DNA from: an uncultured Paraprevotella sp.
GTDB lineage: Bacteria; Bacteroidota; Bacteroidia; Bacteroidales; Bacteroidaceae
NCBI GenBank assembly: GCA_944321565.1
Contig: CALULT010000024.1
Coordinates: 1-43,626, forward strand
Reading direction: 5' to 3'
DNA length: 43,626 nucleotides
Of the stretch, positions 2,604-32,691 are shown one piece after another. Numbering within the stretch: the stretch's first letter is position 1; every line of letters begins with the position of its first letter. The notes under the pieces are model-generated. The model had not been told where the DNA came from. It worked only from the letters and a program-made list of their open reading frames with translations, and ran no database searches. The position numbers and the translations under genes were made by a program.

Positions 2604-2626
2604 CATGGAATACGGCGAGAAAACAA

Positions 2627-2777
2627 CTATTTACAAACGTCAAGTCAACTATTTGCCACCCATCAAAAACTCAAGCCTCTAAAATTCAAATAATTCCATT
2701 TTTCATTTGTCAACTCAAAAATTTGGAAGGAAACATCAGAAAGCCGTAACTTTGCAGCGATTAAACAATTCAATAAG
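2627..2777 (+). repeat. Type I leader module, copy 1
   Basis: This 151-bp noncoding segment before lipoprotein S1 is nearly identical to 12127-12277 before S2, which has the same length. It also matches, over about 100 bp, the segment at 25066-25165 before A2. It holds the S1 promoter and the whole 5' leader up to the ATG. Confidence 0.85.
2722..2754 (+). promoter_or_regulatory. Bacteroidales promoter of the S1-A1 unit
   Basis: A -33 TTTG (2722-2725) and a -7 TAACTTTG (2747-2754) are separated by 21 bp. This fits the Bacteroides consensus TTTG-N19-21-TAnnTTTG. The start codon lies 23 bp downstream. Confidence 0.75.
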
Positions 2778-3233
2778 ATGAAAAAGAAATTTATTATTTT
2801 GCCCGTTGTGGCAATGTTGATGGTTTGCGGTTTTTCCGCATGTTCACAAGATGACGACCTCTTCGAGTATGACTTGGGGAACGATGAAGTGGCTACCTTG
2901 GCAAAGAGAAGCATGCCAAGGAATGGAGAGACGATTACTCCTCCGAAACCACAAGACCCATCGCGTGAATATGATGAATGTGGTGTAACGTTCAAGCATG
3001 TTTCTGGAACAGGAGGTAGCATCAGCGTAACGGTTCTATATTCTTTCAGTCGTGATAAGAATGGTAAACCTACAGAAGTTAAGTGTGAATATTATTATGA
3101 ACCCATACTAGGTTTTTCTATAGAGGGTATTTCGCTTAGCGAAAGCGTAATTCCAGGACATTATACTCTTGTATGCACTGCAACAGACGGTGGTAACGAA
3201 AGTTATATTGGTACAGCTGAGGTTTTAATATAA
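2778..3233 (+). CDS. Small variable lipoprotein S1
   Basis: A 151-residue predicted lipoprotein. A basic start and hydrophobic segment end at GFSAC, giving Cys22 as the likely lipidated residue. Residues ~22-52 (SQDDDLFEYDLGNDEVATLA and the following KRSMPRNGE) are almost identical in S2, S3 and S4, also at the DNA level. After that the sequence changes to a beta-rich domain of ~95 residues. This tail resembles the S3 tail (the shared pattern includes PGHY, and both end in a similar EVL motif) but not S2 or S4. The gene lies 38 bp before A1 and shares its promoter, so the two are probably co-expressed and may form an outer-membrane pair. Function unknown. Confidence 0.8.
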   Translation: MKKKFIILPVVAMLMVCGFSACSQDDDLFEYDLGNDEVATLAKRSMPRNGETITPPKPQDPSREYDECGVTFKHVSGTGGSISVTVLYSFSRDKNGKPTEVKCEYYYEPILGFSIEGISLSESVIPGHYTLVCTATDGGNESYIGTAEVLI

Positions 3234-3271
3234 AAGCAAAAACTATAGATTAGGAACAAAATCTATCTACT

Positions 3272-5884
3272 ATGCATATCGTCCGCCTCATCATCACCAT
3301 CATCCTGTTGTTCCCCACATTCTGTTACGGGCAATCCACTTCCTCGCAAGAAGACAACAAGGAAGCGACGTTGGACAGCCTGCTCTCCTGCATGACCCGC
3401 GTGATACATGCCACGCGCAACATGTTTCAAGAGAAAGTCTATCTGCACTTCGACAACACGGGGTATTACATGGGCGAGAAGATATGGTTCAAGGCTTACG
3501 TGGTGAGGGCGGACGACCGAAGGCCCACGCCCCTGAGCCGTGTGCTCCACGTGGAGCTGGTCAACCCGGGAGGCGAGGTGGTGCAACGGCGCAAATTGAA
3601 AATCGACGGGAAGGGGCAGGCGCGAGGCGACCTGTCCCTTGACTCGCTCTATGGGACGGGATTCTACGAGGTGAGGGCTTTCACTCGCTACATGACCAAC
3701 TGGGGAGGCGAGGCCTGCTTCTCGCGCGTGTTCCCCGTGTTCCAAAGGCCGAAGGCCGAAGGGCGTTACGAGCCGCGCATAGACGAACGGAACTACCGCC
3801 ACCGACTGCCCGACACACGCGAGGAGGACACCCTGCACACGGAAAGGCTCAACGTGGCCTTCTATCCCGAGGGCGGCAACCTGGTGGAGGGGCTGCCCGG
3901 GCGCGTGGCTTTCCTGGCAAGCGACAGGGAGGGGATGCACGTGGCGGCCCGGGGAGAGGTGGTGGACAGCGAAGGACGGAAGGTATGCGCCGTCTCCTCG
4001 GACAGCCTCGGAAGAGGCCTGTTCAAGATTCCGCAGGCACACAAGGGACTGAAGCTCCGCCTGCCCGATGGAAGGGGACGGATGAGGGAGTTCGACCTCC
4101 CTGTTCCAACGACGGAAGGCTGTGCCCTGGAAGCCGGGTTGCTGGACGCCGACTCGGTGACTTTTTCCGTCCGCGCCACGGAAAGGTACAGGGGGCGGCT
4201 GCTGGCCTACGCGGTCATGAACTACGGACGGGTGTGGACGTGCGACACCTTCACCGTGGGCACAGAGTTCCGCAAGGCCTTCCCGAGGGCTAGCATACCC
4301 GAGGGAGTGAGCCAGTTCACCGTATTCGACGGGAGCGGGCGCATCCTCTGCGAGAGGCTCTTCTTCCTGCGCCCCGAACCGGAGGCCGGGGACACAATCG
4401 CCTTGTCCACCCTGGACCCGCGCCCCGTGCCCTGCGGGAAGGTACGGATTGACGTGCGCACCCGGCCCGGTGCATGCTTCTCGTTTTCCGCCATGGACCG
4501 CGCAACGCTCTGCAACGGCAAGACGGGGCAAGTGAAAACCTGGATGCTCCTATCATCGGAGGTGAGGGGGTATATCCGAAACCCGGAGTATTACTTCGAG
4601 GCGGACGACGCGGAGCACCGCCGGGAGGCCGACCTGCTGATGATGACGCAGGGATGGAGGCGTTACGACTGGGAGGAACTGTCGGGACGCCGCGCTAGAC
4701 CGGAAATGCAGCCCGTGGAGGACACCCTCCAGGTCTTCGGGAAGCTCCGGGCCACGTCCAAGTCGCTGCCCGTGGACGGCATCCCGATAAGGGCTTACCT
4801 CTATAACAAGGGCAGCCATCTCGACGGGAAAACCGTGACCGACAGCACCGGCGGCTACGCCTTCGCGGTGCCGGACATCGCCGGGGAATGGAACCTGCAG
4901 CTCAAGGCGGGCGTGGAGAAGCGCAAGAACCGCTACGTCATCGGCGTGGACCGCCGTTTCAGCCCGCCGTCCCGCAACCTTTCACCCTACGAGTGCCGGC
5001 AGATTGCGGAACCCCGCGCAAACCTCCGCTTCGCCGAGCCTGAGGAGGAATGGGAAGAGGACACCACCGCCCTGCTCCCGCTCTCGAAGCGCCTGCACAA
5101 GCTCCCCACGGTGAACGTGAAGGCCAAACGGCGGTTCACGGACGGCGCACGTGCCGCATGGCAGTCCGAACGCTCGGGACAGCATTGGGCAGACCTATTC
5201 TATGATTGTGACGAAGAAACGGACAGGATACTGGACGGAGGGGAGGAAACTCCTGAATTTCTTGACTGGCTGGAGGAAAAGAACCCGTTTGTGAAAAGTA
5301 TATCCGGAGCGTATATTTTTGACCCCGAAATGAAGACAACGAACATAGATAATAAAATAAGATTATTATTGAAACATATACAGTATAAAGGGCGGGAGGT
5401 CGTTTGGATTTTAAATAACGAATATTTTTGGTGTCATCTTGATGAGGATTTAGATTCAATCGGCAGGACATCTATTAAATTTACCATAGAACCTTTTCCG
5501 ATTTTCCTGGACGAAGTGAAATCCGTATATATTACGGAAAATCCATCGGCATATATTTCCTTCCGCCCCTATACTCCTTTTATAGAAGAAGTGGTCACCA
5601 TCTTTGTTTATACCCATTGGGGAGTCCCGCAACGGAACATGGAGAAGGGGGTGCGCCGCACCTATTTCCAAGGCTACAACGTGCCTTCGACTTTTGAGAT
5701 GGAGGACTACAGCCTCATCCCGCCCATGGAGGACTTCCGGCGAACCCTTTACTGGAACCCGGACGTGACCGCAGACGAGGAAGGCAAGGCCGTCATCGAA
5801 TTCTACAACAACTCCTCTTGCCGGGAAATCTATGTCTCTGCCGAAGGTATCACGACGGACGGGAGATGCATCTTCAACGAATAG
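3272..5884 (+). CDS. MG2/plug-like macroglobulin-family envelope protein A1
   Basis: An exported protein of 870 residues with a signal peptide ending near FCYGQ (residue ~21). In order it has: an MG2 macroglobulin domain at ~52-155 (motif NTGYYMGEKIWFKAYV); further beta-sandwich regions to ~420; a conserved helix-rich block at 423-470 (YYFEADDAEHRR..GWRRYDW); a carboxypeptidase-regulatory-like sandwich at ~485-560 (DSTGGYAF); the linker LPTVNVKAK at ~612; a TonB-plug-like region at ~625-770 (FLDEVKSVYI); and a C-terminal macroglobulin-type domain from ~795 (FRRTLYWNP). No beta-barrel follows, so it is not a TonB receptor, and no CxEQ thioester is present. This combination is a known Bacteroidota family of unclear function. 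It is nearly identical to A2 except for residues 675-704, which are replaced outright and are AT-rich. Confidence 0.85.
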   Translation: MHIVRLIITIILLFPTFCYGQSTSSQEDNKEATLDSLLSCMTRVIHATRNMFQEKVYLHFDNTGYYMGEKIWFKAYVVRADDRRPTPLSRVLHVELVNPGGEVVQRRKLKIDGKGQARGDLSLDSLYGTGFYEVRAFTRYMTNWGGEACFSRVFPVFQRPKAEGRYEPRIDERNYRHRLPDTREEDTLHTERLNVAFYPEGGNLVEGLPGRVAFLASDREGMHVAARGEVVDSEGRKVCAVSSDSLGRGLFKIPQAHKGLKLRLPDGRGRMREFDLPVPTTEGCALEAGLLDADSVTFSVRATERYRGRLLAYAVMNYGRVWTCDTFTVGTEFRKAFPRASIPEGVSQFTVFDGSGRILCERLFFLRPEPEAGDTIALSTLDPRPVPCGKVRIDVRTRPGACFSFSAMDRATLCNGKTGQVKTWMLLSSEVRGYIRNPEYYFEADDAEHRREADLLMMTQGWRRYDWEELSGRRARPEMQPVEDTLQVFGKLRATSKSLPVDGIPIRAYLYNKGSHLDGKTVTDSTGGYAFAVPDIAGEWNLQLKAGVEKRKNRYVIGVDRRFSPPSRNLSPYECRQIAEPRANLRFAEPEEEWEEDTTALLPLSKRLHKLPTVNVKAKRRFTDGARAAWQSERSGQHWADLFYDCDEETDRILDGGEETPEFLDWLEEKNPFVKSISGAYIFDPEMKTTNIDNKIRLLLKHIQYKGREVVWILNNEYFWCHLDEDLDSIGRTSIKFTIEPFPIFLDEVKSVYITENPSAYISFRPYTPFIEEVVTIFVYTHWGVPQRNMEKGVRRTYFQGYNVPSTFEMEDYSLIPPMEDFRRTLYWNPDVTADEEGKAVIEFYNNSSCREIYVSAEGITTDGRCIFNE

Positions 5885-6094
5885 AAAAACATAATATATG
5901 CGTACAAAAAAACATTCTGCCTTGATGAAGACAATCCGCAAAGCAACGGACGGTGACTCACCACTCCACATCGTGTCCCCTTGCAGGGCTCTTGAATCCA
6001 AAGAGCTACCGACCCGACTGCAACGGAAACCAGACCCATTACGACAAGAAAAATCGGACATCCTGCCAGTTTGTACCCTTTTTTTAATTTTTTC

Positions 6095-6125
6095 TTGCTG
6101 ATTCGCTTAGATTTTCGTAATTTTG
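6095..6125 (+). promoter_or_regulatory. Promoter of B1
   Basis: A -33 TTG (6095-6097) and a -7 TAATTTTG (6118-6125) are spaced by 20 bp. This is the only one of the three B-class promoters that keeps the TA of the TAnnTTTG box. The 5885-6094 part of the gap has no supported gene; it differs from the leaders of B2 and B3 until about 6080. Confidence 0.7.
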
Positions 6126-6147
6126 TAATGGACTAAAAGAAAAAGTC

Positions 6148-9000
6148 ATGAAGTTTACCCGTCAGTTTCTGCTTTTAACCGTCCTCAGCTGTGCGCAACC
6201 CATGGCCGCACAACAAGACCGGGATGCCCTTCTCCCCTTGCTGGAGAAGGCGGCATCCGTGCAGCAATTCAGCCGGACATACCCGCAGGAGAAGGCCTAC
6301 CTGCACTTCGACAACACGGGTTATTTCATCGGGGAGACAATTTGGTTCAAGGCATACGTGACACGGACGGACACCGACCGCCCGACAGACCAGAGTGGGG
6401 TGCTCTACGTGGAACTGCTCAGCCCGGCGGGCGACGTGGTGGAACGACGGAAGCTGGAGCTTAAGGACGGCCAAGGGCGCGGAGACATACGCCTCGACAA
6501 AATCCTCACTTCGGGATTCTACGAGGTGAGGGCTTACACACGGTATATGGCGAACTGGGGGACGGGCGCGTGTTTCTCGCGCGTGTTCCCCATTTTTGAC
6601 GAGCCACGGAAAGCGGGGGACTACTCAAGGGCTACCATCGACCGCTCCACACGGAAGCACCGGGTGCCCAGCGTGAGGGGAGACGCGGAAGCGGAACCGG
6701 CAAACAAGAAGCACACGGAAGAGCCTGCGGACGGGGAAAGCCCGGCAAGGCCGCGCGGGGCTTACGCCATGGAAAGCCGGGGTGTCACCCTGACGCTTTA
6801 CCCCGAAGGGGGAAACCACGTGCTGGGGCTGGAAGGGAAGGTGGCCTTCAGGTTGACGGACGAAGAAGGGAAACCCGTGACGGGCACGGCACGGCTCGAA
6901 AGCGAGGAAGGCACGGTGGAGAAGCCGGAAATCACGGTTGACAGCCTGGGACGCGGCATCTTCGTTTACACACCGTTGGACACGCCCGCAGAACTCGTAC
7001 TCTCCCGCACCAACGGCCGGACGCTCCGTTTCAACCTGCCCGTGGCGGAACGGGAAGGATGCGCCCTAAGCGTGAACACTCTGGCGGAAGACAAAATCCA
7101 CGTGGAAGCGGCCGTCTCACCCGGGCTACAAGGCCGGATGTGGGGCGTGACCCTGCAAAACGGCGGCACCGTGGTGGCCACCCATTCGTTCCGCACGGAG
7201 ACAACGCCCCAAACCTTCTTCTTCAACCGCGGCGACATGCCAGCGGGGGTGAGCCAAATCACCATCTTCGACGGCGACGGGCGGATTTGGGCAGAACGGC
7301 AGGTGTTCATACCTCCACGTCCCGCGAAAGAAGACAGCATCCGCCTGCGGGTGGAGACGGGGCAGTTGCGTCCCTGCGGCAAAGTGAAGCTGACGGCAGA
7401 AGCCACGCCGGGCTGCACCTTCTCCTTCTCCGCAAGGGACATCGCGTCCTCCACCGGGGGATGCAACGGCAATATACGTACCTGGATGCTGCTCTGTTCC
7501 GAACTGCGCGGCTATGTGCACCGCCCTGAATACTATTTCGAGGCTGACGACGCAGAGCACCGCGAGGCGGCCGACCTGCTCATGCTGACGCAGGGATGGC
7601 GGCGATATGACTGGCAAGTGATGGCGGGGGAAGAACCTTTCAAACCGGAATATCCAGCGGAAGACGGGCTTTACCTCGACGGACGGGTGTTCCCCGCCAA
7701 GCGGCGGCAACGGACGGACGGGCTGCATCTCACGGCCTATCTTTATAACCGCGCCGGGGAATCACTCAAAGGGGAGACACGCACCGACAGCGCGGGACAC
7801 TACGCCTTCTCGCTGCCCGACTGCACGGGACGATGGTCGCTCTTCCTCAAGGCCGAGGGCAGGAAGGAAAAGGAGGACTTCCGCATCGGCATCAGCCGCA
7901 ACTTCGCCCCAATGCCGCGCACTTACGATTGGGCTGAAACACGACCGGAAGCGGAAAGCCTGCACAGGCGGCTACGCTTCGGAGGATTCGAGGACACCGA
8001 CACACTCGCCCCACCGCAGGAGAAACGGCACATCCTGATGCCCACGGTGCACATCGATGAACGGTGGGCGTACGAAAATCCCCGCGTGGCCTGGGAAACC
8101 GAAGCCGTGGGGCGGCAGAAATCCTACCTCTACTACGACTGCGACGCAGCCGTGGATCTGATTTCCGACAAAGGGGAGGAAATCCCCACCTTCGAAGACT
8201 GGCTGAAGGAACGGAACGAATTCTTCACGGGAGATACATACATTGTGCGCGATGAAACCACGGAGGAGGATTGGAAAGAAAGCCTGAAACTGATGTTCCA
8301 CATTGGAGGTGAAAGCGGGATACCTGAAAAACTTCTCATTGACGGTCTGAATAAAGGGAAACAAATCCTCAGCAAAGAATACAACATCTACAAGGACGGA
8401 TTGAAATACGACGGCCGTCCCATCGTGTGGGTCATTGACAATGCCTACAATTCTATCTCGGGAATAAACTATAACCACCAATTCAAACAAGAAAAGCCAT
8501 ATAAGGATCCGTTTAAAGAGCCAGACGAAGCAAAAAAAAATGAAATATGGGATTTCACTGTACCGAAAATGGAAGTGACTTTTGTCAACTCCACCACATA
8601 TAACACCGTGGAGATGCCGCTCTTCCTGGACGAAGTGAAGTCGGTCTATGTGGCCGATGACCAATCGACCTGGCGGAAGTTCATCCAATTCAAAAATGAA
8701 AACATGCAGCCGCCCGTGACGGTGTTCGTCTATACGCACCACTCTTTCTTTGGCAACGTCAAAGGGTTACGCCGCACCTATTTCCAAGGCTACAACGTGC
8801 CTTCGACTTTCGAGATGAACGACTACAGCCTCCTGCCACCCATGGGGGACTTCCGACGCACATTGTATTGGAACCCGGACGTGACCACGGACAAGGACGG
8901 AAAGGCCGTCATTGAGTTCTACAACAACTCGACCTGCCGCGAGATACAAGTCTCCGCCGAAGGCATCACGCCGGACGGAAGGTGCATCTTCAATGAATAA
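6148..9000 (+). CDS. MG2/plug-like macroglobulin-family envelope protein B1
   Basis: A class B member of 950 residues. The signal peptide probably ends at PMAAQ (~21). The MG2 domain starts at ~47 (NTGYFIGETIWFKAYV). A polar, Glu/Ala/Pro-rich insertion at ~175-210, absent from classes A and C, separates MG2 from the next sandwich domain, which opens with LTLYPEGGNHV. The EADDAEH/GWRRYDW block lies at ~460-490, the regulatory-like sandwich at 508-571 and the plug-like region at ~660-850. The common tail, ending DGRCIFNE, occupies ~875-950. Compared with B2 and B3, the changes cluster in residues ~700-815, inside the plug-like region. Class B genes have their own promoters and no small lipoprotein gene in front, unlike A1, A3 and the C class. 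Confidence 0.85.
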   Translation: MKFTRQFLLLTVLSCAQPMAAQQDRDALLPLLEKAASVQQFSRTYPQEKAYLHFDNTGYFIGETIWFKAYVTRTDTDRPTDQSGVLYVELLSPAGDVVERRKLELKDGQGRGDIRLDKILTSGFYEVRAYTRYMANWGTGACFSRVFPIFDEPRKAGDYSRATIDRSTRKHRVPSVRGDAEAEPANKKHTEEPADGESPARPRGAYAMESRGVTLTLYPEGGNHVLGLEGKVAFRLTDEEGKPVTGTARLESEEGTVEKPEITVDSLGRGIFVYTPLDTPAELVLSRTNGRTLRFNLPVAEREGCALSVNTLAEDKIHVEAAVSPGLQGRMWGVTLQNGGTVVATHSFRTETTPQTFFFNRGDMPAGVSQITIFDGDGRIWAERQVFIPPRPAKEDSIRLRVETGQLRPCGKVKLTAEATPGCTFSFSARDIASSTGGCNGNIRTWMLLCSELRGYVHRPEYYFEADDAEHREAADLLMLTQGWRRYDWQVMAGEEPFKPEYPAEDGLYLDGRVFPAKRRQRTDGLHLTAYLYNRAGESLKGETRTDSAGHYAFSLPDCTGRWSLFLKAEGRKEKEDFRIGISRNFAPMPRTYDWAETRPEAESLHRRLRFGGFEDTDTLAPPQEKRHILMPTVHIDERWAYENPRVAWETEAVGRQKSYLYYDCDAAVDLISDKGEEIPTFEDWLKERNEFFTGDTYIVRDETTEEDWKESLKLMFHIGGESGIPEKLLIDGLNKGKQILSKEYNIYKDGLKYDGRPIVWVIDNAYNSISGINYNHQFKQEKPYKDPFKEPDEAKKNEIWDFTVPKMEVTFVNSTTYNTVEMPLFLDEVKSVYVADDQSTWRKFIQFKNENMQPPVTVFVYTHHSFFGNVKGLRRTYFQGYNVPSTFEMNDYSLLPPMGDFRRTLYWNPDVTTDKDGKAVIEFYNNSTCREIQVSAEGITPDGRCIFNE

Positions 9001-9070
9001 AAGACATGATGAATATGTACAAGACAGACAGCCCTGCTTTGCATGGGGATGAACCGAGAAACAGTGAGCG

Positions 9071-9097
9071 GGGGCACACCTCCATGCGTTGTGCCCC
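9071..9097 (+). terminator. Hairpin in type II leader, possible terminator of B1
   Basis: A perfect 8-bp stem GGGGCACA/TGTGCCCC with an 11-base loop is followed only by TTT. In the second copy one stem base differs but still pairs (G-U), which suggests the RNA structure is kept. The weak T tract leaves open an attenuator or mRNA-end role. Confidence 0.5.
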
Positions 9098-9177
9098 TTT
9101 AGGCTTGCGGCTTTTGGGCATCACAGGTTTAACTGTGACAGGTGCTCATCAAATTACACCATAATTTTAATTTTTTC

Positions 9178-9208
9178 TTGCTAATTCGCTTATATTTTCG
9201 CAATTTTG
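9178..9208 (+). promoter_or_regulatory. Promoter of B2 (variant -7)
   Basis: A -33 TTG (9178-9180) and CAATTTTG (9201-9208) are spaced by 20 bp. The first base of the -7 box is C instead of T, compared with TAATTTTG before B1. Confidence 0.6.
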
Positions 9209-9230
9209 TAATGGACTAAAAGAAAAAGTC

Positions 9231-12080: not shown

Positions 12081-12126
12081 AAGACATGATGAAACAGAAA
12101 ATGCAGGCATCACAAGCCAATATAGA

Positions 12127-12277
12127 CTATTTACAAATGTTAAGTCAACTATTTGTCACCCATCAAAAACTCAAGCCTCTAAAACTCAAATAATTCCATT
12201 TTACATTTGTCAACTCAAAAATTTGGAAGGAAACATCAGAAAGCCGTAACTTTGCAGCGAACAAACAATTCACTAAG
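12127..12277 (+). repeat. Type I leader module, copy 2
   Basis: A near-identical 151-bp copy of 2627-2777. Here it precedes S2, whose C-terminal tail and downstream partner differ from those behind copy 1. Confidence 0.85.
12222..12254 (+). promoter_or_regulatory. Promoter of the S2-C1 unit
   Basis: TTTG (12222-12225) and TAACTTTG (12247-12254) with a 21-bp spacer, the same as the S1 promoter. Confidence 0.75.
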
Positions 12278-15414: not shown

Positions 15415-15420
15415 AAAAAC

Positions 15421-18685: not shown

Positions 18686-18755
18686 AAGACATGATGAATA
18701 TGTACAAAACAGACAGCCTTGCTTTGCATGGGGATGAACCGAGAAGCAGTGAGCG

Positions 18756-18782
18756 GGGGCGCACCTCCATGCGTTGTGCCCC
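18756..18782 (+). terminator. Hairpin in type II leader, possible terminator of A3
   Basis: The stem GGGGCGCA/TGTGCCCC includes one G-U pair, with the same 11-base loop size as the copy at 9071 and the same short T run after it. Confidence 0.45.
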
Positions 18783-18862
18783 TTTAGGCTTGCGGCTTTT
18801 GGGCATCACAAGTTTAACTGCGAAAGGTGTTCATCAAATTATGCCATAATTTTATTTTTTTC

Positions 18863-18893
18863 TTGCTAATTCGATTATATTTTCGCATTTTTG
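18863..18893 (+). promoter_or_regulatory. Promoter of B3 (variant -7)
   Basis: TTG (18863-18865) and CATTTTTG (18886-18893) with a 20-bp spacer. Both leading bases of the -7 box context differ from the B1 promoter, so strength may differ. Confidence 0.55.
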
Positions 18894-18913
18894 TAATGGA
18901 CTAAAAAAAAGTC

Positions 18914-21748
18914 ATGAGGTTTACCCGTCAGTTTCTGCTTTTAACCGTCCTTAGCTGTGCGCAACCCATGGCCGCACAACAAGACCGGGATGCCCTTCTC
19001 CCCTTGCTGGAGAAGGCGGCATCCGTGCAGCAATTCAGCCGGACATACCCGCAGGAGAAGGCCTACCTGCACTTCGACAACACGGGGTACTTCATCGGGG
19101 AGACGATTTGGTTCAAAGCCTACGTGACACGGACGGACACCGACAGCCCGACAGACCTGAGCAGGGTGCTCTACGTGGAACTGCTCAGCCCGGCGGGAGA
19201 CGTGGTGGAACGACGGAAGCTGGAGCTTAAGGACGGCCAAGGGCGCGGAGGCATCCGCCTCGACAAAATCCTCACTTCGGGATTCTACGAGGTGAGGGCT
19301 TACACACGGTATATGGCGAACTGGGGGACGGGCGCGTGTTTCTCGCGCGTGTTCCCCATTTTTGACGAGCCACGGAAAGCGGGGGACTACTCAAGGGCTA
19401 CCATCGACCGCTCCACACGGAAGCACCGGGTGCCCAGCGTGAGGGGAGACGCGGAAGCGGAACCGGCAAACAAGAAGCACACGGAAGAGCCTGCGGACGG
19501 GGAAAGCCCGGCAAGGCCGCGCGGGGCTTACGCCATGGAAAGCCGGGGTGTCACCCTGACGCTTTACCCCGAAGGGGGAAACCACGTGCTGGGGCTGAAA
19601 GGGAAGGTGGCCTTCAGGCTGACGGACGAAGAAGGGAAACCCGTGGCGGGCACGGCACGGCTCGAAAGCGGGGAAGGCACGGCGGAGAAACCGGAAATCA
19701 CGGTTGACAGCCTGGGACGCGGCATCTTCGTTTACACGCCGAAGGACACGCCCGCAGAACTCGTACTCTCCCGCACCAACGGCCGGATGCTCCGTTTCAC
19801 CCTGCCCGTGGCGGAACGGGAAGGATGCGCCCTAAGCGTGAACACCATGGCGGAGAACAAAATCCACGTGGAAGCGGAAGTCTCACCCGGGTTACAAGGC
19901 CGGCTGTGGGGAATGACCCTGCAGAACGGCGGCACCATAATAGGTGCTCATTCGTTCCGCACCGGTGCGACTCCACAAACCTTCTTCTTCAACCGCGGCG
20001 ACATGCCTCCGGGAGTGAGCCAAATCACCATCTTCGATGGAGACGGGCGGATATGGGCAGAACGGCAGGTGTTCATACCTCCACGCCCTTCAAAAAAGGA
20101 TAGCATCCGCTTGCGGGTGGAAACGGGGCAGTTGCGCCCCTGCGGAAAGGTGAGGCTGACAGCGGAAGCCGCGCCGGGAAGCACCTTTTCCTTCTCCGCA
20201 AGGGACATCGCGTCCTCCACCGGGGGATACAACGGCGATATACGTACTTGGATGCTGCTCTGTTCCGAACTGCGCGGCTACGTGCACCGCCCTGAATACT
20301 ATTTCGAGGCCGACGACGCGGAGCACCGCGAGGCGGCCGACCTGCTCATGCTCACCCAGGGATGGCGACGGTATGACTGGCAAGTGATGGCAGGGGAAGA
20401 ACCTTTCAAACCGGAATATCCGGCGGAAGACGGGCTTTACCTCGACGGACGGGTGTACCCCGCCAAGCGGCGGCAACGGACGGATGGGGTGCGACTCACG
20501 TCCTATCTTTATAACCGCGCCGGGGAATCCCTCAAAGGGGAGACACGCACCGACAGCGCGGGACACTATGCCTTCTCGCTGCCCGACTGCACGGGACGAT
20601 GGTCGCTCTTCCTCAAGGCCGAGGGAAGGAAGGAAAAGGAGGACTTCCGCATCGGTATCAGCCGCAACTTCGCCCCCATGCCGCGCACTTACGATTGGGC
20701 TGAGACACAGCCGGAAGCGGAAAGCCTGCACGGGCGGCTGCGCTTCGGCGGTTTCGAGGATACAGACACACTCGCCCCGCCGCAGGAGAAACGGCACATC
20801 CTGATGCCCACGGTACACGTCGATGAACGGTGGGCTTACGAAAATCCCCGCGTGGCCTGGGAAACCGAAGCCGTGGGGCGGCAGAAATCCTACCTCTACT
20901 ACGACTGCGACGCAGCCGTGGACCTGATTTCCGACAAGGGGGAGGAAATCCCCACCTTCGAAGACTGGCTGAAGGAACGAAACGAATATTTCACGGGACA
21001 AACCTACGTTGTGCATGATGAAACACCGGAGGAAGACTTGGAGGAAGAGATAAAACTAATGAATCCGGAATATTCCCCTGATAATGGCGGAGATGAAAAA
21101 AGATTCAACCTCCTGCTTGAACAAATGAAAATTGGTTCCACGGTGATTGATAAAGAATACAACATCTATAAGGACGGGTTGATGTATGACAACCGCCCTA
21201 TCGTGTGGGTCATAGACAACTCCTACCATTCCCTTACAGGAACGAATTATAACTTCCCGCCTAATCCTAACACGACACCCAGCCTCATAGACCCAGACTT
21301 GACCCCACGTCCGATGATGCAAGTAATCTTTACTAACTCAACCACACACAACACCGTGGAGATGCCAATTTTCCTAGACGAGGTGAAATCGGTCTATGTA
21401 GCCGATGACCAATCGACCTGGCGGAAGTTCATCCGCTTCAAAAACGAGAACATCCAAATGCCCGTGACGGTGTTCGTCTATACGCACCACTCTTTCTTTG
21501 GCAACGTCAAAGGGTTACGTCGCACCTATTTCCAAGGCTACAACGTGCCCTCAACTTTCGAGATGAACGACTACAGCCTCCTGCCACCCATGGAGGACTT
21601 CCGGCGAACCCTTTACTGGAACCCGGACGTGACCACGGACAAGAACGGAAAGGCCGTCATCGAATTCTACAACAACTCCTCCTGCCGGGAAATCTATGTC
21701 TCAGCCGAAGGCATCACGCCGGACGGAAAGTGCATCTTCAACGAATAA
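18914..21748 (+). CDS. MG2/plug-like macroglobulin-family envelope protein B3
   Basis: A 944-residue class B protein, almost identical to B1 and B2 over the N-terminal two thirds. The stretch between about residues 700 and 800 is strongly replaced: MNPEYSPDNGGDEKRFNLLL and NFPPNPNTTPSLIDPD stand where B1 and B2 have other sequences. Its C-terminal end is mosaic. It reads SSCREIYVSAEGITPDGK, the form seen in class A, where B1 and B2 read STCREIQVSAEGITPDGR. It is followed by a type III leader leading to S4. Confidence 0.85.
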   Translation: MRFTRQFLLLTVLSCAQPMAAQQDRDALLPLLEKAASVQQFSRTYPQEKAYLHFDNTGYFIGETIWFKAYVTRTDTDSPTDLSRVLYVELLSPAGDVVERRKLELKDGQGRGGIRLDKILTSGFYEVRAYTRYMANWGTGACFSRVFPIFDEPRKAGDYSRATIDRSTRKHRVPSVRGDAEAEPANKKHTEEPADGESPARPRGAYAMESRGVTLTLYPEGGNHVLGLKGKVAFRLTDEEGKPVAGTARLESGEGTAEKPEITVDSLGRGIFVYTPKDTPAELVLSRTNGRMLRFTLPVAEREGCALSVNTMAENKIHVEAEVSPGLQGRLWGMTLQNGGTIIGAHSFRTGATPQTFFFNRGDMPPGVSQITIFDGDGRIWAERQVFIPPRPSKKDSIRLRVETGQLRPCGKVRLTAEAAPGSTFSFSARDIASSTGGYNGDIRTWMLLCSELRGYVHRPEYYFEADDAEHREAADLLMLTQGWRRYDWQVMAGEEPFKPEYPAEDGLYLDGRVYPAKRRQRTDGVRLTSYLYNRAGESLKGETRTDSAGHYAFSLPDCTGRWSLFLKAEGRKEKEDFRIGISRNFAPMPRTYDWAETQPEAESLHGRLRFGGFEDTDTLAPPQEKRHILMPTVHVDERWAYENPRVAWETEAVGRQKSYLYYDCDAAVDLISDKGEEIPTFEDWLKERNEYFTGQTYVVHDETPEEDLEEEIKLMNPEYSPDNGGDEKRFNLLLEQMKIGSTVIDKEYNIYKDGLMYDNRPIVWVIDNSYHSLTGTNYNFPPNPNTTPSLIDPDLTPRPMMQVIFTNSTTHNTVEMPIFLDEVKSVYVADDQSTWRKFIRFKNENIQMPVTVFVYTHHSFFGNVKGLRRTYFQGYNVPSTFEMNDYSLLPPMEDFRRTLYWNPDVTTDKNGKAVIEFYNNSSCREIYVSAEGITPDGKCIFNE

Positions 21749-21754
21749 AAGACA

Positions 21755-22030
21755 TGATGGATGTGTATTGAACAGTCTACAGATAGGTCATTCATAAGCC
21801 CATCTTGACATACCATGGTCGGATTCTTTCCTTCAATTAGCGGGTTACAAGCACTATATAATAAGGGTACATGGAGAAAAAAACGGTAGAAATTTGGGTA
21901 ATGCTTTTGCTTATGTAACAAGATGTTTCGTTTTTGTAACATCAGGCTTTTTTCCTCTTGCGAGGATGGATTTTATTTCATAACTTTGCAGCGATTTCAA
22001 AAAAAACAAAAAAATGAGCACATTAAAAAA
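21755..22030 (+). repeat. Type III leader module, copy 2
   Basis: Similar to 15421-15699 with scattered substitutions and small gaps. It precedes S4. Confidence 0.72.
21958..21988 (+). promoter_or_regulatory. Promoter of the S4-C2 unit
   Basis: TTG (21958-21960) and TAACTTTG (21981-21988) with a 20-bp spacer. Confidence 0.7.
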
Positions 22031-22516
22031 ATGTTTGCATTGCCTGTTGTGGCGATGCTGTTGGTAGGCGGTTTTTCCGCATGTTCACAAGATGACGACC
22101 TCTTCGAGTATGACTTGGGGAACGACGAAGTGGCCACTTTGGCAAAGAGAAGCATGCCGAGGAACGGGGAAGCGATAATTCCACCAATAACTTCAAATAC
22201 TGTTGGGCAATTTGAAATGGAACCTAGCTTCCACTTTGTATATACCGAATATATCGGGAATGATATTGTAACATTAGACACCACACTTGTTGCCAAAGTA
22301 GTAGTGACGGTAATTAAAACCTATTCAACAGACACTCCACACATGGCATCTTATACGGGGATTCTTTCGGAACTGGAATGCCCTATGGAATTGGACATTG
22401 ATGATAAACCTTCAATTACTTTGAACGGAGATAATAATGTAAAAATAACCTTGAGAGCAAATTTTAGGAATGCAAGCCAAAAAGAGTATTCAGAGTCATT
22501 CACAATCGGAGAATAG
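22031..22516 (+). CDS. Small variable lipoprotein S4
   Basis: 161 residues from MFALPVVAMLL, with lipobox GGFSAC and the invariant DDDLFEYDLGNDEVATLAKR block. The ~105-residue tail (starting near ITSNTVGQFEME, ending SESFTIGE) is unlike S1-S3 at the sequence level and appears beta-rich. Another ATG 17 bases upstream (22014) is out of frame by one base across a run of seven A's; one more A would join it to this gene and give a basic signal-peptide start. The 3' end overlaps C2 by 47 bases if the C2 start given here is right. Confidence 0.76.
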   Translation: MFALPVVAMLLVGGFSACSQDDDLFEYDLGNDEVATLAKRSMPRNGEAIIPPITSNTVGQFEMEPSFHFVYTEYIGNDIVTLDTTLVAKVVVTVIKTYSTDTPHMASYTGILSELECPMELDIDDKPSITLNGDNNVKITLRANFRNASQKEYSESFTIGE

Positions 22517-25019
22517 AAGAATTCTTCTATTTCGCATGGTGCTGTGCGCCAGTTTCAGCTTCATGCCCGCATCGGGCATGTGGGCGGCACAAGAGACGGA
22601 GGTTTCCGGAGATTCCATAGGAATTACCGAAAGGCTCCGTGCCTTCATGAACAACATAGAGACGTTCAACAACGTGTTCCCGCAGGAGAAAGTATATCTG
22701 CATTTCGACAACACCGGTTACTTTGCGGGAGAGACGATATGGTTCAAGGCGTATGTCACAAGAATGGACTGCAGCCGGGCCACCGACATCAGCCGGGTGC
22801 TCTACGTGGAACTGGTGCATTCCGAAGGGGAGGTGATGGAGACCTGCAAGCTTCGCATAGAAAACGGACAGGCAGAAGGGTGCTTCAAGCTCAACGACAA
22901 CCTCCTTTCCGGATTCTACGAGGTGCGGGCCTACACCCGCTACATGCTGAATTGGGACTACCGGGGCCTGTTCTCCCGCGTGTTCCCCATTTACAAGCAA
23001 CCGGAAAAGAACGGGGATTACGCTCAGAAGCTCATGGACACCTTGAGCTATGACAAGCGATTGCCCAACTACCGGGAAAAGGACAGCGCGTCGTGGACAG
23101 CTGGCAGTACCCACGTCACGTTCTATCCCGAAGGCGGGAAGGCCGTACTCGGTTTGCCCTGCCAAGTCGCCTTCCAAATCACGGACGCGAAAGGCGCACC
23201 GATGGATGCCACGGCCTACCTCGTTGACGAAGACGGGAACGTGGAATCCACGATGCGCACACACCGCCAGGGGCGCGGGCTGTTCCGCTACGTGCCGGAC
23301 GGAAGCGCGAAATTCTTCACGCTTTCCCCCTCGGGAAGGAAGCGAGAACGTTTCCCGTTGCCCGAGGCTTCAGCCGACGGCTGCGTGATGAGCCTTGATG
23401 CCGTGTCGCCAAGAGATTCCGTGACGCTGGACATACGCGCCACGAATCCGGACACCCTCGGGCTGACCCTCATGCACGACGGCAACCTCGTGTTTGGCGA
23501 TGTGGTTCACGTCCCCGCGCAAGGTTTCCGGCTGGCGTTCGGGCGTGACAAGCTCCCCGAAGGCGTCAGCACGTTCACACTTTTCGACCATAAGGGGGAA
23601 ATCCTGGCCGAGAGAATGTTCTTCGTGTGCCCCAAGGCCGATGCCGGCGACAGCATACGGATAGCGGCTGCCAGCAATCGGCTCACTCCTTACGGAAAAG
23701 TGCGGATTACCATGGAAACGTTGCCCCACACGACATTCTCCTTTTCCGCCATCGACGTGACCACCTCGACAGGGGCGGATGCCATGAATCCCAAGACGTG
23801 GATGCTGCTCTCCTCTGAACTGGCCGGGTACGTGGCAGACCCGGGATATTATTTCGAGGCCGACGACGAACGGCACCGCAAAGACGCGGACTTGCTGATG
23901 AGGGTGCAGGGCTGGCGGCGGTATGACTGGAAGACGATGAGCGGGAATGCCCCCTTCACTGTCACCCAGCCCCTTGAGGACGGGCTTTACCTGACCGGGA
24001 AGCTCCACCGGAAATGGAAGCGTAACCCCGTGGCAGGAGTCGATTTGACCGCCTACCTCTATAACGAAAAGGGGGAGAGCTACACCGGGCGAACCGTGAC
24101 CGACAGCACGGGTTACTATTCCTTCAGCCTGCCCGAACTGCGCGGGGAATGGAACATGGTGCTCAAGACCAGCGTGGAGGGAAAGGCCAAAGGCTATTAC
24201 GTTGCGATACACCGCCAGTTCTCGCCGCGCCAAAGGTTCCTCTCCCCGGGAGAGATGGTGCCTTCCGGGAAGATGGCGGCCAACCTCAAATTCGAGGAAG
24301 GGTTCGCGGTGCAGGATTCGTCCGTCGTGCCGGCCATGAAAACAATCCCCCTTCCGGAAACACAGGTGGAAAGGGAACGGATTTATGAAAATGCGAGGGC
24401 TGCCTGGGAGACAGAACGGAGCGGGGCTTACAAGGCCTGCATCTACTACAACTGCGACAAGGCCTGCGACGAAATCGCGGACCGCGGGGAGGAAATTCCG
24501 GAGTTCACGGAGTGGCTGGTGGACAAGAACCCATTCTTCAGATACACGGAGGGGAGGAACATCGGCGGCATCAAGTATAAACAGTATCCCGTACTATGGG
24601 TGCTCAACAACAACAGTTCGGACAGCGAAGAAATGCCAGTATTCCTTGACGAGCTCAAATCCATTTACATCTGCGAGGACTTGACGGAGTATTTCAGGTA
24701 CAGCCAAGACGACCGGTACAAGAAAGACCCTCCGGTAACGGTATTTCTCTACACGCACCACAAATTCTTGCCCAATGTGAAAGGCGTGCGTCGCACCTAT
24801 TTCCAAGGCTACAACGTGCCTTCGACTTTCGAGATGAACGACTACAGCCTCCTGCCACCCATGGAGGACTTCCGCCGCACATTGTATTGGAATCCGGACG
24901 TGACCACGGACAAGGACGGGAAAGCCGTCATCGAGTTCTACAACAACTCCTCCTGCCGCGAGATACAAGTCTCCGCCGAAGGTATCACGACGGACGGAAG
25001 GTGCATCTTCAACGAATAA
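22470..25019 (+). CDS. MG2/plug-like macroglobulin-family envelope protein C2
   Basis: 849 residues from the first ATG. A shorter form from the ATG at 22536 (MVLCASFSFMPASG) would lack the basic residues (RRILLFR) in front of the hydrophobic core, so the longer or an intermediate start is preferred. Class C marks match C1: NTGYFAGETIWFKAYV, MRVQGWRRYDW and FLDELKSIYICED. The plug-like region is compact, with about 25 residues between ICED and VTVFLYTHH where C1 has about 75. The last ~80 residues are class B-like at DNA level (YFQGYNVPSTFEMNDYSLLP) rather than C1-like, which points to gene conversion of the 3' end. It is linked to S4. Confidence 0.83.
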   Translation: MQAKKSIQSHSQSENRRILLFRMVLCASFSFMPASGMWAAQETEVSGDSIGITERLRAFMNNIETFNNVFPQEKVYLHFDNTGYFAGETIWFKAYVTRMDCSRATDISRVLYVELVHSEGEVMETCKLRIENGQAEGCFKLNDNLLSGFYEVRAYTRYMLNWDYRGLFSRVFPIYKQPEKNGDYAQKLMDTLSYDKRLPNYREKDSASWTAGSTHVTFYPEGGKAVLGLPCQVAFQITDAKGAPMDATAYLVDEDGNVESTMRTHRQGRGLFRYVPDGSAKFFTLSPSGRKRERFPLPEASADGCVMSLDAVSPRDSVTLDIRATNPDTLGLTLMHDGNLVFGDVVHVPAQGFRLAFGRDKLPEGVSTFTLFDHKGEILAERMFFVCPKADAGDSIRIAAASNRLTPYGKVRITMETLPHTTFSFSAIDVTTSTGADAMNPKTWMLLSSELAGYVADPGYYFEADDERHRKDADLLMRVQGWRRYDWKTMSGNAPFTVTQPLEDGLYLTGKLHRKWKRNPVAGVDLTAYLYNEKGESYTGRTVTDSTGYYSFSLPELRGEWNMVLKTSVEGKAKGYYVAIHRQFSPRQRFLSPGEMVPSGKMAANLKFEEGFAVQDSSVVPAMKTIPLPETQVERERIYENARAAWETERSGAYKACIYYNCDKACDEIADRGEEIPEFTEWLVDKNPFFRYTEGRNIGGIKYKQYPVLWVLNNNSSDSEEMPVFLDELKSIYICEDLTEYFRYSQDDRYKKDPPVTVFLYTHHKFLPNVKGVRRTYFQGYNVPSTFEMNDYSLLPPMEDFRRTLYWNPDVTTDKDGKAVIEFYNNSSCREIQVSAEGITTDGRCIFNE

Positions 25020-25065
25020 AAGAAATGATGAAACAGAAAATGCAGGCATCACAAGCCAATATAGA

Positions 25066-25165
25066 CTGTTTACAAACGTTAAGTCAACTATTTGCCACCC
25101 ATCAAAAACTCAAGCCTCTAAAATTCAAATAATTCCATTTTTCATTTGTCAACTCAAAAATTTGG
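25066..25165 (+). repeat. Type I leader module, partial copy 3
   Basis: The first ~100 bp match the other two type I leaders; similarity breaks just after the -33 TTTGG. No lipoprotein gene follows here. Confidence 0.8.
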
Positions 25166-25192
25166 AGAAAACATATGATTGGCGTAACTTTG
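25161..25192 (+). promoter_or_regulatory. Promoter of A2 and probably the two downstream genes
   Basis: TTTG (25161-25164) and TAACTTTG (25185-25192) with a 20-bp spacer. The start codon is 32 bp downstream. Confidence 0.72.
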
Positions 25193-25224
25193 TAACAAAG
25201 TCTAAAACCATAACTCTATCTGCC

Positions 25225-27786
25225 ATGCACATCGTCCGCCTCACCATTACAATCATCCTGTTGTTCCCCACATTCTGTTACGGGCAATCCACTTCCTCGC
25301 AAGAAGACAACAAGGAATCGACGTTGGACAGCCTGCTCTCCTGCATGACCCGTGCCATACATGCCACGCGCAACATGTTTCAAGAGAAGGTCTATCTGCA
25401 CTTCGACAACACGGGGTATTACATGGGCGAGAAGATATGGTTCAAGGCTTACGTGGTGAGGGCGGACGACCGCAGGCCCACCCCCCTGAGCCGTGTGCTC
25501 CACGTGGAGCTGGTCAACCCTGGCGGGGAGGTGGTGCAGCGGCGCAAATTGAAAATTGACGGAAAGGGGCAGGCGCGAGGCGACCTGTCCCTTGATTCGC
25601 TCTATGGGACGGGATTCTACGAGGTGAGGGCCTTCACGCGCTACATGACCAACTGGGGAGGCGAGGCCTGTTTCTCGCGCGTGTTCCCCGTGTTCCAAAG
25701 GCCAAAGGCCGAAGGGCGTTACGAGCCGCGCATAGACGAACGGAACTACCGCCACCGGCTGCCCGACACCCGCGAGGAGGACACCTTGCATACGGAAAGG
25801 CTCAACGTGGCCTTCTATCCCGAGGGCGGCGACCTGGTGGAGGGGCTGCCAGGGCGCGTGGCCTTCCTGGCGGGAGACAGGGAGGGGATGCACGTGGCGG
25901 CCCGGGGTGAGGTGGTGGACGGCGGAGGGCGGAAGGTGTGCACCGTCTCCTCGGACAGCCTCGGGCGCGGCCTGTTCGCCCTCCCGCAGGCACACAAGGG
26001 GCTGAAGCTCCGCCTGCCCGATGGAAGGGGACGGATGAGGGAGTTCGACCTCCCCGTTCCGGTAACGGAAGGTTGCACATTGGAAGCCGGGCTGCTAGAC
26101 GGCGACTCGGTGACTTTTTCCGTCCGTGCCACGGAAGGGTACAGGGGGCGGCTGCTGGCCTACGCGGTCATGAACTACGGAAGGGTGTGGACGTGCGACA
26201 CCTTCACCGTGGGCACAGGGTTCCGAAAGGCCTTCCCGAGGGCAAGCATGCCTGAGGGTGTGGGCCAGTTCACCGTCTTCGACGGGGGCGGGCGCATACT
26301 CTGCGAGAGGCTCTTCTTTCTGCGCCCGGAACCGGATGCCGGGGACACGATTGTCTTGTCCACCCAAGACCCACGTCCCGTGCCCTGCGGGAAGGTGCGA
26401 ATCGATGTGCACACCCGACCCGGAACATGCTTCTCGTTTTCCGCCATGGACCGCGCGACGCTCTGCAACGGGAAAAACGGGCAGGTGAAAACCTGGATGC
26501 TCCTATCCTCGGAAGTAAAGGGGTATATCCGCAACCCGGAGTATTACTTCGAGGCGGACGACGCGGAGCACCGCAGGGCGGCCGACCTGCTGATGCTGAC
26601 GCAGGGATGGAGGCGTTACGACTGGGAGGAACTGTCGGGACGCCGCGCTAGACCGGAAATGCAGCCCGTGGAAGACACCCTCCAGGTTTTCGGGAAGCTC
26701 CGGGCCACGTCCAAGTCGCTGCCCGTGGACGGCATCCCGATAAGGGCTTACCTCTATAACAAGGGCAGCCATCTCGACGGGAAAACCGTGACCGACAGCA
26801 CCGGCGGCTACGCCTTCGCGGTGCCGGACATCGCCGGGGAATGGAACCTGCAGCTCAAGGCGGGCGTGGAGAAGCGAAAGAACCGCTACGTCATCGGCGT
26901 GGACCGCCGTTTCAGCCCGCCGTCCCGCAACCTTTCACCCTACGAGTGCCAACAGGTTGCGGAACCCCGCGCGAACCTCCGCTTCGCCGAGCCTGAGGAG
27001 GAATGGGAGGAGGACACCACCGCCCTGCTCCCGCTCTCGAAGCGCCTGCACAAGCTCCCCACGGTGAACGTGAAGGCCAAGCGGCGGTTCACGGACGGCG
27101 CACGTGCCGCATGGCAGTCCGAACGCTCGGGACAACGTTGGGCTGACCTCTTCTATGACTGTGACGAGGAGACGGACAGGATGCTGGACGGAGGAGAGGA
27201 AACTCCGGCTTTCCTTGACTGGCTGGAAGAAAAAAACCCGTTTGTGTCAAGACTCTCCATGTCAGATAACGGAGGTGGGGTACGATACAAAGGACACTAT
27301 GTCGTATGGATTCTGAACAACGAATACTTTTGGTGCGACCTTGATAATGTGCAAGACACAGTCTTAATGACCACCATCAAACTTAGCATCGAACCTTTTC
27401 CTATTTTCCTGGACGAGGTGAAATCCGTATATATCACGGAAAATCCCTCGGCATATATTTTCTTCCGCCCCTATACTCCTTTCTCTAAGGAAGTGGTCAC
27501 CATCTTCGTTTATACCCATTGGGGAGTCCCGCAACGGAACATGGAGAAGGGGGTTCGCCGCACCTATTTCCAAGGCTACAACGTGCCATCAACTTTTGAG
27601 ATGGAGGACTACAGCCTCATCCCGCCCATGGAAGACTTCCGGAGAACCCTTTACTGGAACCCGGACGTGACCGCAGACGAGGAAGGCAAGGCCGTCATCG
27701 AGTTCTACAACAACTCCTCTTGCCGGGAAATCTATGTCTCAGCCGAGGGCATCACACCGGACGGGAGATGCATCTTCAACGAATAG
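25225..27786 (+). CDS. MG2/plug-like macroglobulin-family envelope protein A2
   Basis: 853 residues. The start is set at MHIVRL by alignment to A1, rather than at an in-frame ATG 63 bases upstream that overlaps the promoter. The protein is almost identical to A1 except for scattered changes and one sharp replacement after EEKNPFV. There, 13 residues (SRLSMSDNGGGVR) stand in place of 30 in A1, and the following ~20 residues also differ before rejoining at IEPFPIFLDEVKSVYI. Unlike A1 and A3 it has no lipoprotein gene in front. Its stop is six bases from the next start codon, so it probably leads an operon with the transglutaminase-like lipoprotein. Confidence 0.85.
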   Translation: MHIVRLTITIILLFPTFCYGQSTSSQEDNKESTLDSLLSCMTRAIHATRNMFQEKVYLHFDNTGYYMGEKIWFKAYVVRADDRRPTPLSRVLHVELVNPGGEVVQRRKLKIDGKGQARGDLSLDSLYGTGFYEVRAFTRYMTNWGGEACFSRVFPVFQRPKAEGRYEPRIDERNYRHRLPDTREEDTLHTERLNVAFYPEGGDLVEGLPGRVAFLAGDREGMHVAARGEVVDGGGRKVCTVSSDSLGRGLFALPQAHKGLKLRLPDGRGRMREFDLPVPVTEGCTLEAGLLDGDSVTFSVRATEGYRGRLLAYAVMNYGRVWTCDTFTVGTGFRKAFPRASMPEGVGQFTVFDGGGRILCERLFFLRPEPDAGDTIVLSTQDPRPVPCGKVRIDVHTRPGTCFSFSAMDRATLCNGKNGQVKTWMLLSSEVKGYIRNPEYYFEADDAEHRRAADLLMLTQGWRRYDWEELSGRRARPEMQPVEDTLQVFGKLRATSKSLPVDGIPIRAYLYNKGSHLDGKTVTDSTGGYAFAVPDIAGEWNLQLKAGVEKRKNRYVIGVDRRFSPPSRNLSPYECQQVAEPRANLRFAEPEEEWEEDTTALLPLSKRLHKLPTVNVKAKRRFTDGARAAWQSERSGQRWADLFYDCDEETDRMLDGGEETPAFLDWLEEKNPFVSRLSMSDNGGGVRYKGHYVVWILNNEYFWCDLDNVQDTVLMTTIKLSIEPFPIFLDEVKSVYITENPSAYIFFRPYTPFSKEVVTIFVYTHWGVPQRNMEKGVRRTYFQGYNVPSTFEMEDYSLIPPMEDFRRTLYWNPDVTADEEGKAVIEFYNNSSCREIYVSAEGITPDGRCIFNE

Positions 27787-32572: not shown

Positions 32573-32651
32573 TTTCTGTTTTCTTGTTTTTATGCGGCTG
32601 ATGCCGCGTCCTTAATGATTAAACTATCTTTTTCCTTATTATATCCACGCG

Positions 32652-32659: not shown

Positions 32660-32691
32660 GCAAATTATTCCATATTGCGCGAAAATAAATG

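Follow-up and report, generated by a model that had tools for sequence, protein, structure and literature searches.

An eight-gene tandem array of predicted macroglobulin-type proteins in an uncultured Paraprevotella, apparently shaped by recurrent exchange of a 3′ block

Eight related genes lie in tandem in a 43,626-nt stretch of DNA from an uncultured Paraprevotella sp. (GenBank assembly GCA_944321565.1, contig CALULT010000024.1), which at its full length is called the window here. They are open reading frames (ORFs) of 849-950 aa with no internal stop codon, all on the + strand and in the order A1, B1, B2, C1, A3, B3, C2, A2 (Table 1), separated by nothing but leaders and four small lipoprotein genes. 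The window is free of N. Judged by the translations, similarity among the eight paralogs is far beyond chance, protein identity to A1 being 93% for A2, 58% for A3 and 46-48% for the remaining five. For A2, the ATG at 25225 was chosen as the start, the listed ORF beginning at TTG 25162. A careful tree of the gene bodies, as opposed to a shared tail of 76 codons at the 3′ end, places classes A, B and C in one clade each, with A3 and C2 as deep branches; a quick FastTree analysis placed C2 and the C gene of a relative (G015) outside the remaining C genes. These results confirm the content, order, integrity and three-class division that a first-pass annotation had proposed from the letters of this DNA. 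When the own genome was searched with a profile of the family (E ≤ 1e-5), 10 matches were obtained: the eight array genes and one distant gene on another contig, which accounts for two.

The bodies and tails of these genes group differently. At alignment columns 1001-1050, DNA identity between the window lineages is 0.80-0.94, versus 0.21-0.77 elsewhere (11 pairs among the matches listed). Relatives are labelled by genome (G, with G000 the own genome), contig (C) and locus (L). In the body tree, B genes group with B and C genes with C across species. The tail tree instead groups by genome, uniting B and C of G011 (support 100/100) and B and C of G007 (92/73), and is otherwise poorly resolved, with one of 12 inner branches starred. 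Approximately unbiased (AU) tests, for which the groups were chosen after inspection of a FastTree tree, rejected grouping by genome for the body and grouping by class for the tail. At four-fold degenerate sites, between-lineage identity within the window is 0.41 in the body (3853 sites) and 0.65 in the tail (688 sites). The corresponding values for the B-C pair are 0.49 and 0.91 in G011, and 0.42 and 0.79 in G007, while tails in pair sets that differ in both species and lineage reach 0.30, 0.47 and 0.53. Within one class, for B of G007 against B of the window, the relation is reversed (body 0.68, tail 0.42).

To count this pattern, a pair was scored when tail identity at four-fold sites was at least 0.70 and exceeded that of the body by at least 0.15. 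Eleven of 24 same-locus pairs qualified. They come from several genera and represent 9 of the 16 loci that contain at least two family genes; four of the 24 had too few sites, and some genes are cut at the 5′ side by contig ends. The pattern was found in 2 of 28 same-genome pairs on other contigs and in none of 80 random pairs between records. For 11/24 versus 2/28 the one-sided Fisher p value is 0.0016, to be read with the pairs being non-independent and the criterion having been set after a preliminary count. That count (8 of 16 chosen same-locus pairs, with 1 of 12 and 0 of 8 controls; one-sided Fisher p 0.003) is replaced by the full one, which leaves out L056-L058 and L061 as well as L051, L067, L068, L072 and L080, five loci that share contigs with named loci. 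The two qualifying pairs among the 28 both join L113 to genes of L103, and because these genes lie near contig ends, they may in fact be neighbours. Two more pairs, L135 with L149, fall just under the criterion.

Counted back from the stop codon, identity drops between codons -60 and -90 in ten pairs, most often near -75 to -80. The drop in L053 is at about codon -90. In G017:C82 identity climbs again to 0.80-0.90 farther upstream, and a body stretch is alike at 0.84. In G007 and G011, paralogs are closer than orthologs in the tails, at synonymous sites too, and not in the bodies. We read these comparisons as pointing to exchange that has recurred at a single 3′ block, about 76 codons long. 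Weighing against this reading is the B gene of G011, whose tail is closer to that of window B (0.61 at four-fold sites) than is its body (0.49). Stronger protein constraint on the tail was considered as the sole cause and set aside: between genomes, protein identity of the tail is no higher than that of the region matching the domain MG2, so constraint alone would be insufficient. As far as the accessible text of PMC6053082 goes, the long-lasting concerted evolution of bacterial paralogs described there is alike in that same-genome paralogs are closer than orthologs. Here, in contrast, one 3′ block is involved and the bodies have diverged. A DNA search with the plug-like region and tail of C2 gave nine hits in the own genome, each of them within the array, and no orphan tail or silent cassette.

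A tandem pair with homogenised tails from Marseilla massiliensis An819 (L138:8834-15520) carries, in the body, a second 76-codon stretch at 0.99 DNA identity, which is perhaps a second conversion tract.

The nature of the proteins emerged largely from structure prediction. An AlphaFold2 model of C2 (predicted local distance difference test score, pLDDT, 84; predicted TM-score, pTM, 0.83) has the predicted fold of an alpha-2-macroglobulin/complement-type chain of macroglobulin (MG) domains. The head combines MG domains with a TonB-plug-like and a carboxypeptidase-regulatory-like domain; the 76-residue tail, which consists only of strands in this model, comes last. The strand order yields only three whole MG domains and one split one, and we infer that the plug-like domain is placed inside the split domain, at the position of the bait region. 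Only 87 residues follow the last plug strand, which leaves no beta-barrel.

By sequence, MG2 is the sole domain detectable in all eight proteins, over the Pfam cut-off (32.8 bits) in one, C2, at 33.2 bits and below it in seven (18.0-30.3 bits). Pfam Plug (PF07715) matched none of the eight whole proteins, none of 60 isolated insert domains at E up to 0.1 and none of four isolated inserts at E up to 10; in the own genome it has 20 places, none inside the window. Identifying the plug by sequence was therefore given up, and its fold became visible only after structure prediction. A Foldseek search with the insert returned TonB-dependent transporters, by title, in 20 of 28 rows, including the first 15, and in a second look they were all 50 among the matches listed. 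With the whole C2 model, no TonB transporter was among the matches listed, an uninformative result as the large MG part fills the list. A sequence search of the PDB with a 60-row profile gave no match at E up to 1. Hence, of the MG2/plug domain set named in the first-pass annotation, MG2 is seen in the sequences and Plug is not, while the barrel-less plug-like domain is borne out by its fold.

Some known members of the alpha-2-macroglobulin superfamily lack the thioester motif. The array proteins resemble this superfamily, which includes complement C3-C5 and the bacterial alpha-2-macroglobulins of E. coli and Salmonella, in having a chain of MG-type domains by fold. They differ from it in their three whole and one split MG domains, in the plug-like insert, and in lacking both a thioester motif (C-(1-2)-[EQ]-Q in none of the eight) and the C-terminal half (CUB, thioester domain and last MG), the proteins ending at residue 849-950. 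Structural alignment to C3 stops at C3 residue 819, and the tail lies within the macroglobulin alignment up to residue 849. The insert likewise shares the fold of the plug domain of TonB-dependent and SusC-type transporters, and differs in the missing barrel and in the absence of any Pfam Plug match. The macroglobulin-type fold in the model, with an insert at the presumed bait position, could suggest a set of protease-trapping inhibitors in which the insert, or the linker before it, is the bait; residues 611-650 of C2, just ahead of the plug-like domain, have block pLDDT 44-55 and could form a flexible bait. We think this very improbable, given that no C-x-E-Q-like motif or thioester-bearing C-terminal half is present and that most of the insert is predicted to be a folded domain (block pLDDT 82-97 for residues 71-180 of the isolated model and 74-94 in the whole model).

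The tail could also be constant for another reason, namely that it is read by the translocon of the type IX secretion system (T9SS), with variable cargo ahead of it. SprA (TIGR04189), a T9SS translocon protein, is over cut-off in all 18 genomes of the genus sample, 11 of which are at least 90% complete. The tail is C-terminal and consists of strands in the C2 model, and C-terminal domains of T9SS cargo are Ig-like beta-sandwiches according to the part of PMC11285876 consulted. However, four isolated tails match no NCBIfam T9SS C-terminal model at E up to 10, four whole family proteins match none at 0.05, and the tail belongs to the macroglobulin alignment. We therefore regard T9SS export as an unlikely explanation. 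The Bacteroidota beta-barrel assembly machinery (BAM) was rejected as a known home of these proteins, a term search of the available portions of PMC12611786 and PMC12578637 having returned no macroglobulin, MG2 or carboxypeptidase.

In a longer form of the family (about 1200-1340 aa; L138:11645-15520 and L112:8786-12433), a carboxypeptidase-regulatory domain precedes the MG part at the N-terminus, and the L138 protein has a weak DUF5686 match besides.

The heads diverge most in the loops of the plug-like domain. For A1-A2, B1-B3 and B2-B3, the bodies are close (proportion of synonymous differences, pS, 0.15-0.19), and the stretch of the plug-like domain from WLxxxN to FLDE has pS 0.62-0.68 and a proportion of nonsynonymous differences (pN) of 0.23-0.27. 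The exception is B1-B2, in which this stretch is also close (pS 0.20), so that the divergence peak is found in three of four close same-class pairs. By FhuA topology, we take these to be the apical, ligand-side loops of the plug. Over the same stretch the B gene of G013 has pS 0.23 to B1 and 0.68 to B3; because it matches B1 and not B3, at least one loop type appears to be common to different species. The first-pass annotation had invoked selection for a repertoire, and the substitution ratios do not show diversifying selection: dN/dS is 0.00-0.39 in all 42 computable cells of 44 (11 pairs by four regions, two cells saturated). Because dN/dS is below 1 and loop divergence is high at synonymous sites also, the loops point to mosaic exchange by recombination or to escape from conversion, and we make no claim of positive selection. 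The idea of a repertoire of heads is plausible, and the ligand-, protease- or antibody-facing variants that the first-pass annotation gave as examples are conjectural.

Exact runs of 188-409 nt occur among A1-A2 and among the B copies, which indicates that homologous exchange has recently reached parts other than the tail; those of the B copies (6148-9000, 9231-12080 and 18914-21748) measure 342-409 nt and fall in alignment columns 134-272. Such runs would also fit ordinary tandem paralogs, in which the tail is merely the last stretch similar enough for RecA-dependent conversion, a self-maintaining island without function, and the heads go back to old duplications and each do a different job. 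The upstream limit of the tail block coincides with the loss of similarity, and dN/dS below 1 fits this account as well. Yet the tail pattern recurs at 9 of 16 multi-gene loci in several genera, and the equally conserved MG2 region is not homogenised in G007, G011, L141 and L135. Ordinary paralogy is thus an explanation that we take seriously and nevertheless doubt.

The array looks like a lineage-specific expansion. Every one of the 18 genus genomes has some family member at E ≤ 1e-10, and six have the A/B/C subfamily (E ≤ 1.3e-298); the next-best matches outside it are at 4.5e-220 and 5.7e-215 and are 35-37% identical. The own genome has eight subfamily copies. G007 has two (B-C, beside transglutaminase-like and Wzy_C genes), G011 two (C-B), G017 one A, G015 one C, and G013 at least one, a B gene cut by a contig end. 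Because the order is B-C in G007 and C-B in G011, class order is not fixed among relatives. The local expansion to eight claimed at first is thereby upheld, and the five other genomes with the subfamily, none of the same species, do not carry the same eight genes in fixed order. Among 79 loci with named records, the most family genes per locus is three (flanks up to 10 kb), and in 17 family genomes whose candidates were all scored, no run among the matches listed is longer than four (G193:C14). Pieces of at least about six copies of another subfamily lie on a 12-kb contig (G012:C49). Eight intact copies are the largest array among the genomes examined, and tandem expansion is typical of the family at large. 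A scan of contigs with a single protein found no relative, and an alignment query was used for a further scan. At E ≤ 1e-100 the family is present in 161 of 301 genomes of the taxonomic family (gut and rumen Bacteroidales, up to three candidates scored per genome).

On the G012 contig, two tandem genes of that other subfamily (L060:2832-8180) form one 1782-aa ORF, a fused double copy, near which another copy is interrupted by one TAA.

Misassembly across repeats could in principle have produced the copy number or the order, since exact repeats of up to 409 nt exist within the array and the G007 and G013 contigs break inside family genes. All eight genes are nevertheless distinct and intact, each with its own leader, in a window without N, and the tail pattern recurs at two- and three-gene loci of other genomes. 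An assembly artefact is therefore quite improbable.

Three types of leader precede the units: I (lip1-A1, lip2-C1 and A2), II (B1, B2 and B3) and III (lip3-A3 and lip4-C2). Types I and III are each paired with both A- and C-type bodies. The pattern TTG-N17-23-TAnnTTTG, which we take to be a Bacteroidota promoter type, occurs in six of the eight leaders and at two more places, inside genes, on the + strand of the first 32 kb. Because of these promoter-like patterns, most or all of the eight units can have their own promoter. Nine stretches searched for inverted repeats as a test of phase variation gave only short or imperfect ones of 10-18 nt.

The four small lipoproteins, lip1-4, share a stalk and then diverge, and all four have C-S-Q-D-D-D at the lipobox cysteine. 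According to the accessible part of PMC5080379, Bacteroidota lipoproteins carry an export signal such as SDDDD or QKDDE, and lip1-4 are like these surface lipoproteins in having one or more polar residues followed by acids at +2 to +6 after the lipid cysteine. Because C-S-Q-D-D-D fits this signal, lip1-4 are predicted to be exposed on the cell surface. They are unlike the lipoproteins in that part of the source in being four copies that share one stalk, differ in the C-terminal part and each adjoin a different MG/plug gene. The MG/plug proteins themselves start with signal-peptide-like stretches, and the cysteine that follows V-L-S in the B copies may mark a lipobox. In G007:C20, the lipoprotein gene ahead of B (L047:12810-12995) keeps the lipobox and stalk, ends about 33 residues past the lipid cysteine and has no variable C-terminal part.

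The array is flanked by a regulator-like gene on one side and transglutaminase-like and Wzy_C genes on the other, as had been proposed from the sequence. Homologs of the regulator lie within about 5 kb of family genes in G007:C26 (77.6% identity) and G017:C82. In the transglutaminase-like lipoprotein, residues 446-524 match PDB chains named carbohydrate binding family 6, and an F5_F8_type_C match is below cut-off; Transglut_core is over cut-off in the homologs at L168 and L174, with no match in the window copy. Homologs of this lipoprotein (E ≤ 1e-20) occur at 23 places in the 18 genus genomes, with a family gene within the fetched stretch at 11 and a Wzy_C homolog at 10, three of these weak. 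From this co-occurrence, the transglutaminase-like lipoprotein, the Wzy_C protein and the regulator are likely partners of the array proteins.

A second transglutaminase-like homolog of the own genome (L172:549-3350, G000:C50) consists of two ORFs (648 and 243 aa), both of which match the window protein. An ilvC / acyl-ACP thioesterase / ilvH / ilvB / ilvD set on the minus strand (31529-37581) faces the Wzy_C gene, with ilvC and the thioesterase assigned by domain search and ilvH, ilvB and ilvD by reading of translations. An Rfam scan of the window gave nothing over the gathering score. PADLOC anti-phage models (E up to 0.01) matched none of seven of the eight proteins searched; the eighth, the TPR protein, was rejected as an anti-phage candidate, its three weak matches all falling in residues 274-374, taken as its coiled coil. 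Phage families matched none of five proteins searched.

Table 1. Features of the array and its neighbours in the window
Feature	Position	Strand	Details
TPR / coiled-coil regulator-like protein	1149..2603	+	TPR matches below cut-off; weak BT3442-family match far below cut-off
Type I promoter/leader of lip1-A1 (putative)	2604..2777	+	Aligns with 12081-12277 and 25020-25224; TTG-N-TAnnTTTG motif at 2723
lip1, small lipoprotein	2778..3233	+	Constant stalk to 2930, then variable C-terminal part
A1, MG/plug-like protein	3272..5884	+	Variable plug region 5267-5503; shared tail 5654-5884
Type II promoter/leader of B1 (putative)	5885..6147	+	Leader alignment and motif match
B1	6148..9000	+	Variable plug region 8200-8622; shared tail 8770-9000
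Type II leader of B2	9001..9230	+	Leader alignment; -7 element deviates from TAnnTTTG, no motif match
B2	9231..12080	+	Variable plug region 11283-11702; shared tail 11850-12080
Type I promoter/leader of lip2-C1 (putative)	12081..12277	+	Leader alignment and motif match
lip2, small lipoprotein	12278..12748	+	Constant stalk to 12430
C1	12748..15414	+	Variable plug region 14737-14868; shared tail 15184-15414
Type III promoter/leader of lip3-A3 (putative)	15415..15681	+	Leader alignment and motif match
lip3, small lipoprotein	15700..16119	+	Start inferred (listed ORF 15421-16119); constant stalk to 15840
A3	16094..18685	+	Variable plug region 18107-18310; shared tail 18455-18685
Type II leader of B3	18686..18913	+	Leader alignment; -7 element deviates, no motif match
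B3	18914..21748	+	Variable plug region 20966-21370; shared tail 21518-21748
Type III promoter/leader of lip4-C2 (putative)	21749..22010	+	Leader alignment and motif match
lip4, small lipoprotein	22031..22516	+	Start inferred (listed ORF 21923-22516); constant stalk to 22171
C2 (modelled protein)	22470..25019	+	Variable plug region 24513-24641; shared tail 24789-25019
Type I promoter/leader of A2, without lipoprotein gene (putative)	25020..25224	+	Leader alignment and motif match
A2	25225..27786	+	Variable plug region 27220-27405; shared tail 27556-27786
Transglutaminase-like lipoprotein, carbohydrate-binding-like C-terminal part	27793..29751	+	6 bases after A2
Wzy_C (O-antigen ligase family) membrane protein with TPR	29745..31355	+	PF04932, E 5e-18

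Overall, the array is real and apparently lineage-specific. Its predicted macroglobulin-type proteins carry a plug-like insert, and it appears to have been shaped by repeated exchange of one fixed 3′ block. New relative to the first-pass annotation are the promoter types, the macroglobulin-type fold and the exchange confined to the tail. We lean, with slightly better than even confidence, towards a family of exported envelope proteins encoded in tandem, whose heads vary and whose common tail is recurrently exchanged. Each unit would consist of its own leader (with the promoter-like motif in six of eight), in four cases a lipoprotein gene with a surface-export-type signal, a head and the 76-residue tail. 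Tails would be exchanged repeatedly between neighbours while heads descend within classes. The strands of the tail would complete the MG domain that is split by the plug-like domain, at the position of the alpha-2-macroglobulin bait region. At about 230 bp, the tail may provide the homology for duplication, loss and reordering of units, giving eight here and one or two in relatives. The plug loops, most different within a class, may face different ligands or partners, and the constant tail may dock to one partner common to all, for which the Wzy_C protein and the linked transglutaminase-like lipoprotein would be candidates.

A broader interpretation, which is speculative and which we hold to be improbable as a whole, is a variable-head/constant-tail system on a complement-like scaffold. 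The tail, kept similar in adjacent genes, would be a recombination hub by which heads are added, lost and reordered in frame, and each head would present a different plug-type ligand surface. The transglutaminase-like lipoprotein and the Wzy_C protein would fix or decorate the heads on the surface of the cell, so that covalent attachment by a separate protein replaces the built-in thioester.

A literature search, with subscription journals outside it, gave no paper on MG/plug proteins or such an array among the matches listed. The results tie a widespread family of gut and rumen Bacteroidales to a concrete predicted fold and to a testable evolutionary process. They also raise a structural question, that of the role of a barrel-less TonB-plug fold inside a macroglobulin-type scaffold. 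Should the tail act as such a hub, strains of a single species would be expected to vary in copy number and in their repertoire of heads. The array appears to provide, in a gut-type bacterium, a natural series of diverse heads joined to a common tail.

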